Source: Acidimicrobiales bacterium (GTDB lineage Bacteria > Actinomycetota > Acidimicrobiia > Acidimicrobiales > SHLQ01). From it: a stretch of 45,835 nucleotides of DNA. The DNA is taken from positions 1-45,835 of the forward strand of contig SHLQ01000006.1 of NCBI GenBank assembly GCA_004282895.1. The letters run 5' to 3'. A program made the translations under genes and the position numbers. Below, in pieces: positions 4,757 to 11,144 of the stretch (the first letter of the stretch is position 1; the number at the start of each line of letters is the position of its first letter). The notes under the pieces are model-generated. The model had not been told where the DNA came from. It made no database searches and worked only from the letters and a program-made list of their open reading frames with translations.

Positions 4757-6907
4757 CTACTCACATCGCGTGAGGACTTCGAACGAACTGCAGGTGTCCG
4801 TACCGACGCCGCCGTGACCGAAGTCGGTGCCGGTTCCTCCGACCATGCGGTCATTGCCGCCTCCACCAAACAGACGGTCATTGCCGGCGTGACCCTTCAG
4901 CTGATCCCGACCGTTGCCGGCCACCAACTCATCCGCTCCCGAGTTGCCCGACAAGCGGTCGATTCCCTTGCCGCCGTTGATCACATCGTTGCCTGGTCCG
5001 CCCTGCACAACGTCACGCCCCAAGCCGCCGTCGATTCGATCATTGCCCCGGTCACCGAAGATGCGATCGTTCCCTTCGCCACCGGAGATCACGTCCGATC
5101 CTCCGAGCGCACAGATGATGTCGTTGCCACCGAGCCCGTCGATCACATCAACGCCCGGTGTTCCCTGGATCACGTCGTTGCCCTCGGTCGGTGACTGGCC
5201 TTGACCAATCGAGACCGTGACGGGCCGCCCTCCGCACAGAACCGCAGCTGGCGGCATCGTGGTCGTTGTTGTCGTCGTCGTGGTAGTCGTTGTCGTGATC
5301 GGCGGACCAACCTGCGGGGCCTCGGCCAAGGTCGCCAGCAAAGCGGCCTTCGTAGTGCGGCTGCAGGCGGCACTCCCCTGGCGCAACGTGACCCTCTGAT
5401 TGATCGCACCGACGCGACAGCTTTCAAAGATGCCGTTCGGCCAGCGCACCAAGACCGGTGCGATCTGTGACGCCGACCCCAGACCGAAGTGCAGCGTCCC
5501 GGTGTCCTGCGCCCGATGATTGCGATGGCCGTTCTCTCGAACCTGCCAACTGTCCGCGCCCACGAAGACCTGCGCCCCCATGGCGTCCGGGTTGGAACCC
5601 TCAAGATCGATGGCAAGCCAATTGCCCGGCCCGCCCTTGTTCATGAGGAAGTGATCCGGCGCCCGATCGAAGTCGTAGCCGTTGCCGACCCAGGCGTCCA
5701 TCCAGCCGTCGTCATCGATGTCCGTCACCAAGATGCCTGCTGCAGTCTCGGCGATCGTTGACGGCAGGAGTGAGGTCCCGGCGATCGTGAAGTTGCCGAC
5801 ACCATCGTTGCGGAGGAGAACGTTTCGCTTCTGACCCTCCTCCTTGTGACTACAGCCCGCGAGAATGTCGAGATCGCCATCATTGTCGAAGTCGGCCGCA
5901 GCCGCTGATCGACAGTTGTCGATGAGCGGATCGATCGGCAGTGCCGGAGCGGTGCGAGGAGAGGCGCCGTCGATCAGGTCGTAGATCGCCAGCGGCAGCG
6001 GGCCGGCAAAATTGGCGGCCGATTGACCGCGCACAGCCAACATCTCTGGATGAAGGTCGCCGTCGAAGTCGCCGATGATCACTTCGCGCAGATGGCTGAT
6101 GGGGCCGTTGCGACGACGGGTCGCCGGTGTCGGCGCTGCGGTCAGCGTCGTCTTTCCCGTAGCGATCGAGCTCTCGTTCAGCGTGAAACTGTTGTGCACC
6201 ACCACAATCGGTGTCGCGGTTGGTCCGGTGGACGTCAGCTGGGCGAAACGAAGGCTGCCCGTCGACATCGACCCGTTGTTCGCCGCCTTCGTCCATGCCG
6301 AACCGTCGCCGTTGTTCAAGTACAACGCAGAGGGCACGTTGACGCCCGCGTTCACCGGCGGCGAGCGCAGATCGAGATTCGTGATGATGACATCCATGTC
6401 GCCGTCGACGTCGAAGTCCAGGAAGAGCGGCTGACGACCCCGGCCGGCAGTGTCGGTGATTTCCCCTGCGTCGGCCCGTTGCGCCAGTGTCCCACCGTTG
6501 TTGATGAACAGGCGATTGTCGTTATTGCGTCCGGACACCTCGAAGAGATCTTCGTCGCCGTCGCCGTCGATGTCCGAGAACGCCGCACCGTGGGTATCGA
6601 GCGCACTCACCCCGCCCGACTGCACCGCCGTACGAATGGTCGTCCCGGCACTGATGTCGATGAGCGCTTCCGATGTCGATCCGTGATTGTTCGACCAGAT
6701 GTCAACATGGGCGCCGCCGAGGTCCCGGGTCGTCGCTCCACTCCACGCTGGACTTGTTCCACCCTGCACCGCCGACGGCACCGTCTCCACCGAGAACCCG
6801 GCCCAGCCTTGCCCGCTCGCACCAGGCGCAAACGCCACCAGCGTCGCCACCACTGCCAACACGACAAGTACCTGTGCCCGCACTCCTCGCCAAGTAAACC
6901 GTGTCAT
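4757..6907 (-). CDS. Secreted VCBS/FG-GAP-ASPIC protein with C-terminal RTX repeats (copy 1)
   Basis: A 716-residue exported protein. ATG 6907 is preferred (AGGG 5 nt upstream, directly before the signal peptide); an in-frame GTG exists at 6925. The signal peptide ends at GASGQ (about residue 33). The body has FG-GAP/VCBS beta-propeller repeats with Ca-loop motifs such as DIDGDGDED, DFDVDGDMD, DFDNDGDLD and DIDDDGWMD. An ASPIC/UnbV-like domain follows (NWLAIDLEGSNPDAMGAQV to VRWPNGIFESC). Next come 13 consecutive Thr, then about 150 residues of RTX repeats (GGNDIICALGG, GGEGNDRIFGD) ending in LTRCE. Family knowledge suggests an extracellular Ca-dependent adhesive or matrix protein; no enzyme motif is seen. 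It is a tandem paralogue of the next gene upstream. Confidence 0.9.
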   Translation of the reverse strand: MTRFTWRGVRAQVLVVLAVVATLVAFAPGASGQGWAGFSVETVPSAVQGGTSPAWSGATTRDLGGAHVDIWSNNHGSTSEALIDISAGTTIRTAVQSGGVSALDTHGAAFSDIDGDGDEDLFEVSGRNNDNRLFINNGGTLAQRADAGEITDTAGRGRQPLFLDFDVDGDMDVIITNLDLRSPPVNAGVNVPSALYLNNGDGSAWTKAANNGSMSTGSLRFAQLTSTGPTATPIVVVHNSFTLNESSIATGKTTLTAAPTPATRRRNGPISHLREVIIGDFDGDLHPEMLAVRGQSAANFAGPLPLAIYDLIDGASPRTAPALPIDPLIDNCRSAAAADFDNDGDLDILAGCSHKEEGQKRNVLLRNDGVGNFTIAGTSLLPSTIAETAAGILVTDIDDDGWMDAWVGNGYDFDRAPDHFLMNKGGPGNWLAIDLEGSNPDAMGAQVFVGADSWQVRENGHRNHRAQDTGTLHFGLGSASQIAPVLVRWPNGIFESCRVGAINQRVTLRQGSAACSRTTKAALLATLAEAPQVGPPITTTTTTTTTTTTTMPPAAVLCGGRPVTVSIGQGQSPTEGNDVIQGTPGVDVIDGLGGNDIICALGGSDVISGGEGNDRIFGDRGNDRIDGGLGRDVVQGGPGNDVINGGKGIDRLSGNSGADELVAGNGRDQLKGHAGNDRLFGGGGNDRMVGGTGTDFGHGGVGTDTCSSFEVLTRCE

Positions 6908-6937
6908 TCCATCCCTACAAACCACGCTCCGTAGGCG

Positions 6938-7085: not shown

Positions 7086-9329
7086 CTAGAGCTCGAACTC
7101 GCAGCTCGTCTGGATCACAAATCCGGAACAGAAGTCGTCGCCGACCTTTCCGTAGCCCATGTCGTCGCCGTCGCCACCATCCATGCGGTCGTTGCCACCG
7201 CCGCCGGTGATCGTGTCGGCACCACGGTTTCCGAAGAGGCGGTCTCGACCGTTCGATCCGAAGATCTTGTCCTTGCCGGCGTTGCCGGAAATACGGTCGT
7301 TGCTTCGACCGCCTGTGAGGTGGTCGTTTCCGGCACCGCCTTGAATGACGTCTCGATCGACGCCACCGTCGATGGTGTCATTGCCTTCGTCACCGAAGAT
7401 GCGGTCCTTGCCGGCACCGCCCATGATGGTGTCGTTGCCCAGGCCTCCACAGATGAAGTCGTCGCCACCGAGACCATCGATGATGTCATCACCGTCGGTA
7501 CCGAGGATTACATCAGGACCTTCTGTCGGGGTTTCACCCTTCGAGAGGTCGACCGTCGCCACTCGGGCACGACACATCGGGCCGTCCGGGACCGTCGTCG
7601 TGGTGGTCGTCGTGGTTGTGGTGGTCGTCGTCGTGGTTGTGGTGGTCGTCGTCGTGGTCGGCACCGGGGTGCTTCCCGTGGCCTGAACCAGAGCGATATT
7701 GGTGATCGTTGTGCAGTCAGCGCTGCCCTTCGTGATCGTCACTCGACGGTCGACACCTTCACCGATCAGGCACTCTTCGACGTCGCCGTTGTTCCAGCGG
7801 ACGAGGATCGGTGCAAGGTCGGTTTCCGCACCGAGACCGAAGTGCAGAACACCAGTGTCCTGAACCAGGTGGGCCCGGTGACCGGTCTCACGAACCTGCC
7901 ACTTGGTCGTACCAACAAACACCTGAGCACCCATGGCGTCGGCGTTGCTGCCATCGAGCTCTAGCTGCAGCCAGTGGTTGCCGTTGCCACCCTTGTTGCG
8001 GAAGATGTGGTCGTTGCCGTTCTGGTCATCGAAGCCGTTGGCCACGAACGTGTCCATCCAGCCGTCCTTGTCGATGTCGACCGCAGCGACCGCGGTGGCC
8101 GTGTTCTTGGCCGTTGCGGGCAGCAGCGACGCCGCACCGATGGTGAAGTTTCCAGCGCCATCGTTGAGCAGGATGATGTTGCGATCCTGATCGGCTTCAA
8201 GGAACGTGCAGCCAGCAAAGATGTCGAGGTCGGCATCGTTGTCGTAGTCAGCCAGAGCGATCGAACGACAGTTGTCGGCGAGCGCATCGGCGCTGATTGC
8301 GTCCATTGTCGGGCTGACCAGCGGGTTGACGGTGATCACCGTCTTGGCCAGCGGAAGCTGACCCAACCAATCATCGGTCTCCGGATCTTCGTCGTCGTCG
8401 CTGCTGAGACGGTCGTCCTGGCGAGCGACGATGGCGTCCGGAACGAGGTCGCCGTCGATGTCGCCCAGGGCAATGTCACGGATGCGGGTAGCACCGGCGC
8501 CAGCACCCTGGATCCCGCGCACCGACTGCGTCGGGTCAGCCAACGTGGCCGAACCGGTTGCGATGCTGTCCAAGGCGAACGTAAATGCGTTCGACGAGAT
8601 AACGACGTTGTTCGTGCCTGGACCGGTACTCGTCAGATTGAACTGACGAACGTTGGAGTCGTTGATCACGTTGTTCGTGTCGGCGACCTTGGTCCAGCTG
8701 AGCCCGGTGCCGTCGTTGAGGTAGAGCTCACTCGGTGCCGGGTCGAGGAACGTCGCCGGGTCGGTCGGCGGCTGAACCTGAATGACCGTTCGGTCGAGGT
8801 TGGCGACAAACGCATCCATGTCGCCATCGAAGTCGATGTCAACCATGAGCGGCTGGCGTCCACGACCGGCGTTGTCGACGATTCCCGTCGGCGCAGCTTC
8901 GGTCAGAACGCCTGCGTTGTTGATGAAGACGCGGTTGTCGTTGTCGCGACCAGCCGTCTCGATGAGATCGTCATCACCGTCGTTGTCGAGGTCAGTGAAC
9001 ACGGCACCGTGCGAATCAGCTTCTCCGCCCGCACCAAACGCGTTGGCGAACAAGGCCGCTCCGCCGTTGTAGTCGATGAGGGTCTCCGACTCGTTGAAGT
9101 GGTTGTTGTTCCACACGTCAACACCAGCGCCGCCGATGTCCTCGGTGATGGCCACACCCCAACCGGGGCTGTCGAGCTTCGGCTGTTCGAAGGCCTGTAG
9201 TTGAGAAGGCGCAGTCAAGGCTTCAAACCCTGCCCATCCGCCTTGTGCTCCCGCAGTTGCCTGCGGTATCGCCAGAAGTGCCCCAAGAAGAGACAGTCCC
9301 AGCAACGAGTGAAATACCCGTCGTCGCAT
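7086..9329 (-). CDS. Secreted VCBS/FG-GAP-ASPIC protein with C-terminal RTX repeats (copy 2)
   Basis: A 747-residue paralogue of the neighbouring 4757-6907 product with the same domain order. The frame is open to 9521, but ATG 9329 begins a clear signal peptide (MRRRVFHSLLGLSLLGALLA, cleavage near TAGAQ) and has GGGG 9 nt upstream. Mature regions share phrases with copy 1: GGWAGFE, DVWNNNH, SHGAVFTDLDNDGDDDL, GRGRQPL. VCBS Ca loops (DIDFDGDMD, DIDGDLVPD, DYDNDADLD, DIDKDGWMD) and an ASPIC-like domain (HWLQLELDGSNADAMGAQV to ILVRWNNGDVEEC) follow. The linker holds 22 consecutive Thr. The RTX module starts after PMCRARV and ends QTSCEFEL. Export by Sec is indicated by the signal peptide; no type I secretion genes are in the window. 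Function is inferred as a Ca-dependent matrix or surface protein. Confidence 0.9.
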   Translation of the reverse strand: MRRRVFHSLLGLSLLGALLAIPQATAGAQGGWAGFEALTAPSQLQAFEQPKLDSPGWGVAITEDIGGAGVDVWNNNHFNESETLIDYNGGAALFANAFGAGGEADSHGAVFTDLDNDGDDDLIETAGRDNDNRVFINNAGVLTEAAPTGIVDNAGRGRQPLMVDIDFDGDMDAFVANLDRTVIQVQPPTDPATFLDPAPSELYLNDGTGLSWTKVADTNNVINDSNVRQFNLTSTGPGTNNVVISSNAFTFALDSIATGSATLADPTQSVRGIQGAGAGATRIRDIALGDIDGDLVPDAIVARQDDRLSSDDDEDPETDDWLGQLPLAKTVITVNPLVSPTMDAISADALADNCRSIALADYDNDADLDIFAGCTFLEADQDRNIILLNDGAGNFTIGAASLLPATAKNTATAVAAVDIDKDGWMDTFVANGFDDQNGNDHIFRNKGGNGNHWLQLELDGSNADAMGAQVFVGTTKWQVRETGHRAHLVQDTGVLHFGLGAETDLAPILVRWNNGDVEECLIGEGVDRRVTITKGSADCTTITNIALVQATGSTPVPTTTTTTTTTTTTTTTTTTTTTTVPDGPMCRARVATVDLSKGETPTEGPDVILGTDGDDIIDGLGGDDFICGGLGNDTIMGGAGKDRIFGDEGNDTIDGGVDRDVIQGGAGNDHLTGGRSNDRISGNAGKDKIFGSNGRDRLFGNRGADTITGGGGNDRMDGGDGDDMGYGKVGDDFCSGFVIQTSCEFEL
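7593..7658 (-). repeat. Low-complexity (ACN)22 tract encoding 22 consecutive Thr
   Basis: Twenty-two Thr codons, mostly ACG and ACC with two ACA, form an imperfect 21-nt periodicity in the linker between the ASPIC and RTX domains. The paralogue has 13 Thr at the same place. The length difference suggests slippage-driven variation of an O-glycosylatable linker. Confidence 0.9.
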
Positions 9330-9350
9330 ATCTATTGACCCCGTTTCGTG

Positions 9351-9364
9351 TCGTGTGTCGTGTG
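9351..9364. repeat. Tandem heptamer in the leader of VCBS-RTX copy 2
   Basis: Two exact copies of tcgtgtg (9351-9357, 9358-9364), flanked by partial copies on both sides, lie between the candidate -10 (9376-9381) and ATG 9329. Confidence 0.6.
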
Positions 9365-9375
9365 TCGTAACGCCG

Positions 9376-9381
9376 ATGGTA
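9376..9381 (-). promoter_or_regulatory. Candidate -10 box (TACCAT) for VCBS-RTX copy 2
   Basis: TACCAT on the minus strand lies 46 nt upstream of ATG 9329, giving a leader that contains the tandem heptamers and a GGGG Shine-Dalgarno. No clear -35 is seen. Confidence 0.3.
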
Positions 9382-9424
9382 GAACTACACCAGTTCGGTG
9401 AACCATGGGCTTCGCGGCCCTGTT

Positions 9425-9455
9425 TTGTTCTCGACACTCTCTTGTTCTCGACACT
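9425..9455. repeat. Direct repeat of 14 bp with 17-bp period
   Basis: ttgttctcgacact occurs at 9425-9438 and again at 9442-9455, the second copy running into the 25-bp hairpin repeat. Confidence 0.65.
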
Positions 9456-9536
9456 TCCGGTCGAGATCCCCACGCAGCTTCCACGGTCGCTCCACGCAGC
9501 TCCGCGATCACTTCTCGACACTTCCGGTCGAGATCC
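9445..9536. repeat. Two copies of a 25-bp hairpin-forming direct repeat
   Basis: Identical 25-bp units lie at 9445-9469 and 9512-9536. Each contains the dyad ctcgac-acttccg-gtcgag (6-bp stem, 7-nt loop). The units are separated by 42 bp that themselves contain two near-copies of ccacgcagctcc. Two copies with a non-uniform spacer do not make a CRISPR array. Confidence 0.75.
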
Positions 9537-9598
9537 GCGGAAATCTGCATGGGCCTACGGCGCAGCCTCCGGCCCCTCCTCCGCCCGAGGCGAGCCCT

Positions 9599-9780
9599 GT
9601 GCGTATACAGACACGAGGGAGATCCCACGATCATCGGTGTATACGCACGCACGCCGGCTCCGCCGAAAGAGGGGCAACTTGCTGCGGAAGTTGCCCATGT
9701 CGGCGTGGAGTTTTGGCGAAGCCAAAATCTCTAAGCAACCCGAAGGGTTGCCGGAGACCGATGTCGGGCTCCGGCCCGAC
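9599..9780. other. Array of five hairpins in the long intergenic region
   Basis: Five perfect inverted repeats follow one another: 9599-9609/9638-9648 (11 bp), 9672-9680/9688-9696 (9 bp, 7-nt loop), 9711-9717/9721-9727 (7 bp, GAA loop), 9735-9741/9745-9751 (7 bp, GAA loop) and 9763-9769/9774-9780 (7 bp, TCCG loop). With the two hairpin repeats at 9445-9536 they fill most of the 504-bp gap between divergent genes. No convincing gene was found in 9330-9833. The open frames there carry no recognisable domain and their translation simply reads through the palindromes. A structured ncRNA, stacked terminators or repetitive palindromic elements are the options. Confidence 0.7.
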
Positions 9781-9833
9781 AGTCCAAAAGCATCTGTTGT
9801 CTTTATGTGGTTGTGGGAGAGACTGGGTGGGTT

Positions 9834-11144
9834 ATGGCTTCAGTCCTCGCGCGCGTACGCGCCCTTGATCGTCAACAGATGGAGACGATCTTCACCAGCT
9901 CGATCTTCATGATCACTGCGGGGCTTACCTTCGTGAACACGATTCTCCTGGGCAACGCGCTGGGCGAAGCGGGGCGCGGTGCCGTGGCGGCCGCGTATGG
10001 CAACACCATCGTGCTGGGGTGGGCGTTCCAGATCGGCGTGCCCGCCGCGGCCGCATACTTTGCCAAGGACGTCAGCAACCGCCGCATCGCGATGTCCTCG
10101 TGGGCAATGACTGCAATGTTCGCCATTCCGATCGCGGCGATACTCATTCCCTTCTACCGCTGGCAGATGAACGGTGACGCGTTCCAGGAGTTCGGGACCG
10201 ACCTCAAGCTCTGGTACATCGCGTTCATTGTCGTCAACCTCTTCAACGGGCCCTTCCTCTCGGCCGTCTTCTGGCTGAGAGGTGTTGGCAACCTCGTCAA
10301 GTTCAACGTGTTGCTCGCGATTCCCCAAGTGCTGATCACCCTCGGGTACTCCGTGTTGTTCGTCCTCGATCGACTCACCGTGTTCAGCGCTCTTACCTCG
10401 ACGTTCATCATGATTGTCGTCGGGTGGACATTTGGCCTGGTCTCGACCGGTTCGCTGCCCGGTCGTGGATTCTCCCAAACCACGTTCAATGAAGTCCGCC
10501 ACTACTCACTTCGATCCTGGGTCGGCAATCTCTCGTTCTTCGTCAGCTTGCGTATCGATCAGATGTTGCTCGTCGGGATCGTGGCCACCGACCAGCTCGG
10601 GGTCTACGCCGTGGCCGCGGCGTTCTCAACCCTCTCCGGCCCGATCGCCCGCGGCGTCGCGCAGGGCCTCCTGCCGTTCGTGCGCAACGCGGCCAGCGAT
10701 GCCGAGCGCCTGACTCGCATTCGCCAAAGCCTTCGCTGGGTCTCGGTCGCGTCGGCGGTCACCCTCGTGGTCATCGCCGCGTCCGCAGAGTGGTTCCTGC
10801 CATTCATCTTCAACGACAAGTTTGAGGGTGCGGTTCGTCCACTGCTCCTTCTTTTGCCGGGTGCGTTCGCGACCGATGTGACGCAGGTGTACACGACGGC
10901 ACTCTCATCGTTCAACCGGCCCGAAGACGGCTCGAAGGCACAGATCGCTTCCGCCATCGCCACCGCCATTGGACTGCTCGTGCTCATCCGTCCCTATGGC
11001 ATCGACGGCGCTGCAATCACGACGTCCATCGCCTATTGGGTGGCTCTGCTCGTCTCCATGTTCTATTGGCGTCGCCTGAAAGGCCAGGTGCTACGAGGCG
11101 AAGCCACCGGTAACACTTCCTCACGCGAAGAGGTGCCCGCATGA
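9834..11144 (+). CDS. Wzx-type polysaccharide flippase (MOP superfamily)
   Basis: A 436-residue polytopic membrane protein that would flip the lipid-linked repeat unit across the membrane. ATG 9834 is chosen over GTG 9807 because GGGTGGG lies just upstream and it begins close to the first helix. Hydrophobic helices run along its whole length (FMITAGLTFVNTILLG, ILGWAFQIGVPAAAAYF, VSVASAVTLVVIAASAEWFLPFIF and others), with the MOP-family pattern LGEAGRGAVAAAYG after helix 1 and RSWVGNLSFFVSLRIDQMLL near the middle. It is the first gene of an operon; its stop overlaps the next start by 4 bp (ATGA), so translation is probably coupled to the Wzz-like partner. Confidence 0.88.
   Translation: MASVLARVRALDRQQMETIFTSSIFMITAGLTFVNTILLGNALGEAGRGAVAAAYGNTIVLGWAFQIGVPAAAAYFAKDVSNRRIAMSSWAMTAMFAIPIAAILIPFYRWQMNGDAFQEFGTDLKLWYIAFIVVNLFNGPFLSAVFWLRGVGNLVKFNVLLAIPQVLITLGYSVLFVLDRLTVFSALTSTFIMIVVGWTFGLVSTGSLPGRGFSQTTFNEVRHYSLRSWVGNLSFFVSLRIDQMLLVGIVATDQLGVYAVAAAFSTLSGPIARGVAQGLLPFVRNAASDAERLTRIRQSLRWVSVASAVTLVVIAASAEWFLPFIFNDKFEGAVRPLLLLLPGAFATDVTQVYTTALSSFNRPEDGSKAQIASAIATAIGLLVLIRPYGIDGAAITTSIAYWVALLVSMFYWRRLKGQVLRGEATGNTSSREEVPA

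Follow-up and report, generated by a model that had tools for sequence, protein, structure and literature searches.

The locus and its hairpin array

The window analyzed here, a stretch of 45,835 nucleotides from the genome of an uncultured Acidimicrobiales bacterium, contains an intergenic gap of ~504 bp (9331–9833) that separates two divergent genes. The minus-strand neighbor encodes an FG-GAP/RTX-repeat/UnbV_ASPIC protein and the plus-strand neighbor a Polysacc_synt_3 flippase, the ATG of which lies at 9834. On the minus strand of the window, two adjacent proteins (4757–6925 and 7086–9329) each combine RTX calcium-binding repeats, FG-GAP repeats, and UnbV_ASPIC domains, and their genes face a cluster of flippase, glycosyltransferase, and BNR-repeat genes. 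A short tandem run (GTGTCGTGTGTCGTGTGTCGT) lies at 9347–9369 in what is presumed to be the leader of the matrix-protein gene, and a terminator-like sequence on the plus strand (GGGCTTCGCGGCCC; 9407–9420), followed by a T-rich stretch, is located immediately ahead of the hairpin array, with no plus-strand gene upstream of it. A simple scan of the gap revealed no promoter-like site, a result that carries little weight in an actinobacterium.

The array itself occupies 357 bp (9425–9781) and ends 52 bp upstream of the flippase ATG; without it, the gap measures 146 bp. With a cut-off requiring perfect pairing, a stem of at least 7, and a loop of 3–8, six hairpins were identified in the array (9446–9466, 9513–9533, 9672–9696, 9711–9727, 9735–9751, and 9762–9781, the fourth and fifth with GAA loops), compared to 35 in the entire 45.8-kb window. 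First-order Markov simulation of the region produced a mean of 0.17 such hairpins and a maximum of 2. Shorter or interrupted hairpins are also present, one at 9655–9665 and another in which 9599–9608 pairs with 9639–9648. Folding is much stronger than that of shuffled sequences, with z scores of −7.7 for DNA and −6.0 for RNA (the latter for 9425–9783), and a 25-bp unit, TTCTCGACACTTCCGGTCGAGATCC, occurs twice with 100% identity (9445–9469 and 9512–9536). These observations bear out an earlier, sequence-only reading of the region with regard to its unusual hairpin density, the duplicated 25-bp hairpin unit, and the two hairpins with GAA loops. The seven perfect inverted repeats that it had placed at 9425–9780 do cluster there, yet their number is six at a stem of at least 7; likewise, the proposed start at 9425 coincides with a truncated copy of the repeat described below as REP1, whereas the end lies at 9781.

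A nested mosaic of dispersed repeats

Comparison of the gap with its own draft genome (G000; 3.48 Mb in 316 contigs) returned 80 partial matches, a count that is probably a lower bound since several repeat copies are found close to contig ends, at distances of no more than a few hundred bases. The recurring modules, at gap positions of about 116–176, 183–293, 295–381, 378–425, and 424–452, occur apart from one another, in either orientation, and often in clusters across the genome, which supports the nest of repetitive extragenic palindromes that the sequence-only reading had offered as one of its options. The array is a nested mosaic of three kinds of dispersed repeats: a short hairpin (REP1), a REPIN-like composite of roughly 270 bp, and a double hairpin (D element). 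Its features are as follows.

9331–9833, no strand: intergenic gap of the divergent gene pair (FG-GAP/RTX protein on the minus strand, flippase on the plus strand)
9425–9438, plus strand: truncated 5' part of REP1 (TTGTTCTCGACACT), an extra copy
9446–9466, plus strand: first copy of the REP1 hairpin, with TCTCGAC/GTCGAGA as stem and ACTTCCG as loop; a fragment of a type-A arm follows and extends to about 9505
9507–9781, plus strand: nearly full REPIN-like composite, consisting of a left half-element with a type B arm, the center, and an inverted type-C arm (from an alignment of 12 composites)
9507–9611, plus strand: half-element of ~104 nt, conserved in the genus and made up of a TNAC-type tag, REP1, an arm, a C-rich hairpin, and GTGCGTATAC
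9513–9533, plus strand: REP1 hairpin, copy 2, inside the half-element
9599–9648, no strand: central hairpin of the composite, GTGCGTATAC (9599–9608) pairing with GTATACGCAC (9639–9648)
9655–9665, no strand: short right-arm hairpin, CGGC-TCC-GCCG
9672–9696, no strand: type-C arm hairpin, GGGCAACTT..AAGTTGCCC
9707–9754, plus strand: D element, a 48-bp double hairpin with GAA loops, inserted within the type-C arm
9762–9781, minus strand: right terminal hairpin, TGTCGGGC-TCCG-GCCCGACA, the inverted outer end of the composite

The type-A arm fragment recurs elsewhere in the genome, at G000:C307:8297-8357 and C45:4769-4829.

REP1 is a covarying hairpin with a fixed loop

REP1 is a 21-bp hairpin with the invariant loop ACTTCCG, as in TCTCGAC-ACTTCCG-GTCGAGA, and a covariance model identified 50 matches in G000. 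Among 34 copies from this genome, six of the seven base pairs vary on both sides, and pairing is lost when the partner columns are slid. Because these 34 copies had been picked by their stems, the search was redone with a stem-blind pattern, which yielded 39 matches and none for the reversed control; perfect 6-bp stems are present in 35 of the 39, with nine distinct stem sequences. The structure, and the covariation for which the sequence-only reading had looked to homologous regions, are real, but they are properties of the repeat families and not of this locus.

As a palindrome in the range of 20–40 bp that is present in many copies per genome (50 in G000 and up to 92 in relatives), REP1 fits the description of a REP. 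Its 5' flank carries a T(T/A)AC-like (TWAC-like) tag, which reads TAAC at stop codons and more commonly TTAC elsewhere, and which differs from the GTAG and CGTC tags of the superfamilies defined by Di Nocera et al.

Composite, D element, and nesting

The composite spans about 240–290 bp and consists of two inverted arms of ~104 nt around a GTGCGTATAC/GTATACGCAC center, its ends being inverted relative to each other. A half-element is ordered as tag, REP1, arm (of several types), small C-rich hairpin, and GTGCGTATAC; the opposing, inverted half-element opens with GTATACGCAC and closes in a hairpin. In relatives, GTATA (or GCGTAT) starts 75–81 nt past the loop start in 11 of the 14 copies that have such a motif within 130 nt, and the motif is missing from 130 of 144 REP1 copies, which indicates that full half-elements are a minority there. 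An alignment of 26 half-elements showed covariation in the REP1 stem and in one pair of the C-rich hairpin, with the other predicted pairs mostly invariant or weakly supported. Two inverted REPs with a spacer and one hairpin, the arrangement that characterizes REPINs, are found around the GTGCGTATAC/GTATACGCAC center in L017, L013, L011, and other loci; the window composite terminates on the right in a REP-like hairpin whose loop is different. The array as a whole combines palindromic modules in alternating orientation in extragenic DNA, the organization typical of BIMEs.

The D element comprises 48 bp folded into two hairpins with loops that are mostly GNA, and its second stem varies in a compensating manner (GCAACCC, GGAACCC, GCAACGC, GGAACGC, GGAATGC, and others). 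With 44 copies in G000, three weak ones in G006, and none in nine other species, D has expanded species-specifically. Of 42 unique copies, 17 have composite sequence nearby, another 20 stand alone between genes, and five fall in predicted genes; the GG/GGG at both ends of D may be a target duplication or part of the element.

Copies of the composite with and without an insertion could be compared at the same sites. The type-C arm is uninterrupted in L012 (CTCGGAGACCG) and in L016 and L020 (CTTGGAGACCG), and contains D at the same place in the window and L009. Similarly, the center of the composite is empty in L010 and L017 (GGGGGTACCC), filled by D in L009, L016, and L020, and in L015 occupied by GGGGTCAGACCCC repeats, the kind that flanks the RAYT of the same genome in L046. 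The occurrence of empty and filled composites at one site indicates that mobile repeats of different kinds became nested by insertion. A second double-hairpin element (GCCGTTCGCTTCGCTCACTAACCGAGTTCGGCTTCGCCGAACGTCGC) was observed in at least three copies (L009, 2072–2118; L016, 1440–1487; L037, 1957–2003), two of them within composites.

REP1 behind stop codons

The placement of REP1 relative to genes was assessed for 173 copies in the genus, with gene ends taken from a simple, purpose-written codon-usage gene finder. Between two predicted genes lie 114 copies, with 41 inside predicted genes, where the crude predictor may set false ORFs over repeats, and 18 at locus edges. Within this set, 41 copies that are first in their cluster share the strand of the preceding gene and begin 0–15 nt past its stop codon, usually at a distance of no more than 5 nt. 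The mirror-image arrangement was observed for only two copies (binomial p = 2e-10), and 6.2% of random intergenic points satisfy the 0–15-nt placement. Examples at 0–5 nt on the coding strand are L305, L303, L317, L211, and L246. Stops beside REP1 are TAA in 18 of 32 cases, compared to 71 of 292 genes (p = 0.0003). The REP1 copies of the window are not behind any stop.

Two other explanations for this placement were considered. REP1 could truncate genes and supply TAA stops, which is ruled out for aspartate kinase: orthologues without REP1 terminate at nearly the same residue as the one that carries it, the difference being one or two residues, indicating that the element came in behind the stop and that the protein was not truncated. 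Comparisons for ClpX and PurL weigh less, as the automatic ORF choice was wrong in many loci. The recombination sites of the attC type also follow stops, and were set aside because several hosts are chromosomal housekeeping genes and because the loop, not the ends, is conserved in REP1. A cross-locus BLAST comparison revealed REP1 positions common to two or more species; being biased to loci fetched for REP1, it demonstrates shared positions and not their frequency. The shared positions indicate that some copies persist, either by selection or by simple inheritance.

Based on this pattern, REP1, as distinct from the window array, may have been recruited to act at the 3' ends of mRNAs, where its hairpin would modulate the release of ribosomes, the decay of the mRNA, or termination, a serious possibility to which we nonetheless assign somewhat less than even odds. 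It would make the window copies off-site passengers, and it is compatible with REP1 being a mobile repeat. The orientation bias, its excess over random placement, and the positions common to several species argue for such a role, as does work on E. coli, in which REPs lying no more than 15 nt from a stop have been reported to stall ribosomes and a tuning role for them has been proposed (RepRanger paper, PMC12306157). On the other hand, the same pattern could arise if the element preferentially inserted at TAAC-like sites, given the TWAC-like tag and the excess of TAA stops; moreover, most aspartate kinase and PurL orthologues are without REP1, and the array of the window does not follow a stop. 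The stop placement could reflect either a preference for TAAC as target or selection on an RNA function. The combined proposition that REP1, with its TWAC tag and invariant ACTTCCG loop, typifies a third superfamily of tagged REPs, that its mobilizing enzyme is not among the RAYTs seen in the genus, that it is preferentially delivered to stops on the coding strand, and that it serves there as a genus-wide 3'-end mRNA element, is speculative and rather unlikely. Strong, strand-specific, and genus-wide, the stop-proximal placement is the most interesting lead to emerge from the window, and it makes the question raised by the E. coli REPs, enzyme target choice versus selection for RNA function, a testable one.

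Probable gain of the array at the junction

The same gene pair is kept in five related species, G001, G002, G003, G004, and G005, with syntenic gaps of about 276, 154, 248, 740, and 313 bp, respectively. Neither the array nor the ACTTCCG hairpin is present at the orthologous junction in any of the five, and the window gap minus its array (146 bp) approximates the shortest of the relatives' gaps. Taken together, the missing array and the residual length suggest that the array was most likely gained at this junction in the lineage of the window. In G004 (L098), the gap upstream of the flippase orthologue contains another tandem hairpin (CTCGACACAACCGGTCGAG) on the other strand, with the loop ACAACCG, perhaps a loop variant of REP1.

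An exact 29-base REP1 pattern searched in 84,980 species genomes, a set that may leave out the window's own genome, matched only uncultured Acidimicrobiales MAGs. With the covariance model, REP1 was detected in 10 of 11 genomes of this uncultured Acidimicrobiales genus, at 5–92 copies, with none in G002; one other genus of the family has 11 copies, and none were detected in four further genera. No match was obtained in plasmids, phages, or viral contigs, the viral scan being for the exact D pattern only. No description of REPs for this bacterial group was found in the literature searched.

Probable mobility and alternative explanations

We therefore regard the array as a mosaic of dispersed palindromes that was inserted between the divergent genes in this lineage and that most likely spread as non-autonomous mobile DNA, with a probability of roughly 0.85. 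Its role between these two genes is probably that of a passenger. A plausible mechanism would begin with exposure of the REP1 hairpin in single-stranded DNA. A trans-acting enzyme would then recognize the hairpin through its fixed loop and 5' tag, and the recognized element would be copied to new sites, as has been proposed for REPs and REPINs with Y1 (HUH) transposases. Dispersal, nesting, covariation around a fixed loop, lineage-specific presence at the locus, and the species-specific expansion of D are seen directly in the sequences; mobility in trans, the single-stranded step, and the class of the enzyme are inferred.

RAYTs were considered as the mobilizer of REP1 and rejected. REP1 copies do not flank a cognate RAYT: at 30 RAYT loci of the genus, fetched with up to about 1.5 kb on either side, there was neither an ACTTCCG hairpin (0/30) nor a convincing composite match (0/30), and no clade in a tree of 21 RAYT sequences tracks REP1. 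RAYT number and REP1 copy number are loosely correlated (rho 0.54, p 0.09). Since MAGs are incomplete, an enzyme may have been missed. The copies provided no clean target-site duplication or excision product. Two Y1 (RAYT-like) transposases are encoded in the genome of the window, in L046 (G000:C54) and L047 (G000:C299), with flanking repeats of their own (GGGGTCAGACCCC and ACCTTGTACCTAGTGAGGCCCGACCCC).

A degenerate MITE derived from a DDE-type insertion sequence, in place of a hairpin (HUH-type) element, is an improbable source of the composites. Their length of about 240–290 bp, their organization as long inverted repeats, and their mutually inverted ends would suit a MITE, and the missing RAYT association would be accounted for. 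Yet each end is a hairpin in which compensating changes maintain the stem around a fixed loop, and the ends do not have the constant sequence of terminal inverted repeats; in relatives, half-elements commonly occur singly and copies in tandem, and the composites displayed no target duplication.

The other option of the sequence-only reading, a structured noncoding RNA or a long 5' leader controlling the flippase operon, is very unlikely to apply to the array. The hairpins of such an mRNA leader would act on translation or termination. The strong RNA fold and the position of the array, which stops just short of the flippase ATG, are consistent with a leader. However, the hairpins are parts of dispersed, independently inserted elements, the array is missing from the orthologous junction in five species, no Rfam match was obtained at the gathering threshold or at E ≤ 1, and the promoter scan, for what it is worth in an actinobacterium, was blank. 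The sequence-only reading had itself named many scattered copies, together with a lack of transcription, as speaking against an RNA, and the genome-wide search found the scattered copies. A role for the array as a regulator of the flippase operon is thus unsupported. More generally, strong folding and covariation in an intergenic region can stem from a repeat family and not from a locus-specific regulatory RNA, which calls for caution.

A misjoining of repeats in a fragmented MAG, conceivable in a 316-contig draft with several copies close to contig ends, can practically be dismissed, because five relatives show synteny for the two flanking genes, indicating a genuine join, and the composite shares its architecture with other copies.

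Comparison with known systems

Mitochondrial double-hairpin elements consist of two hairpins with a short linker and compensating stems, and they are dispersed and nested. The D element shares all of these features, a likeness of form only; unlike its mitochondrial counterparts, it resides in a bacterial chromosome and has conserved GNA triloops. Intergenic mosaics of palindromic modules are familiar from the BIMEs of E. coli and the Rhizobium intergenic mosaic elements (RIME). The array is built likewise and is likened to them by its architecture (for RIME, PMC2817692). In contrast to those mosaics, nesting by insertion, as of D in the composite, can be read here from empty and filled copies, making the array a clear bacterial intergenic case of repeats nested within repeats.

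The REPs tagged with GTAG or CGTC (PMC3733652) are likewise short tagged palindromes, with many families per genome, arranged in clusters and often downstream of genes. REP1 differs in its TWAC-like tag and its long, invariant loop, and resembles the CGTC REPs in that no dedicated transposase is known for either; a text search of the same paper returned no mention of Actinobacteria. The GGGGTCAGACCCC repeats, which correspond to the RAYT/TIRYT-associated kind (PMC3733652), reside in the same genome and flank the Y1 transposase at C54 (L046), but they differ in sequence from the composite, and they insert into the L015 composite without forming composites themselves.

A further close parallel is provided by the REPINs of Pseudomonas fluorescens (PMC3116915), which also consist of two inverted hairpin repeats and a spacer within one larger hairpin, carry compensating changes, are extragenic, and form tandem clusters of near-identical units. 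The distance between the conserved ends is 71 bp in the GI REPIN (PMC3116915), compared to a composite of about 240–290 bp here. Unlike in REPINs, the halves are interchangeable multi-hairpin arms of ~104 nt with other elements nested within, and the hairpin, with its fixed 7-nt loop and TWAC-like tag, is carried by none of the RAYTs found. The array is probably a new, more elaborate mosaic of the REP/REPIN/BIME type and a form of non-autonomous mobile DNA.
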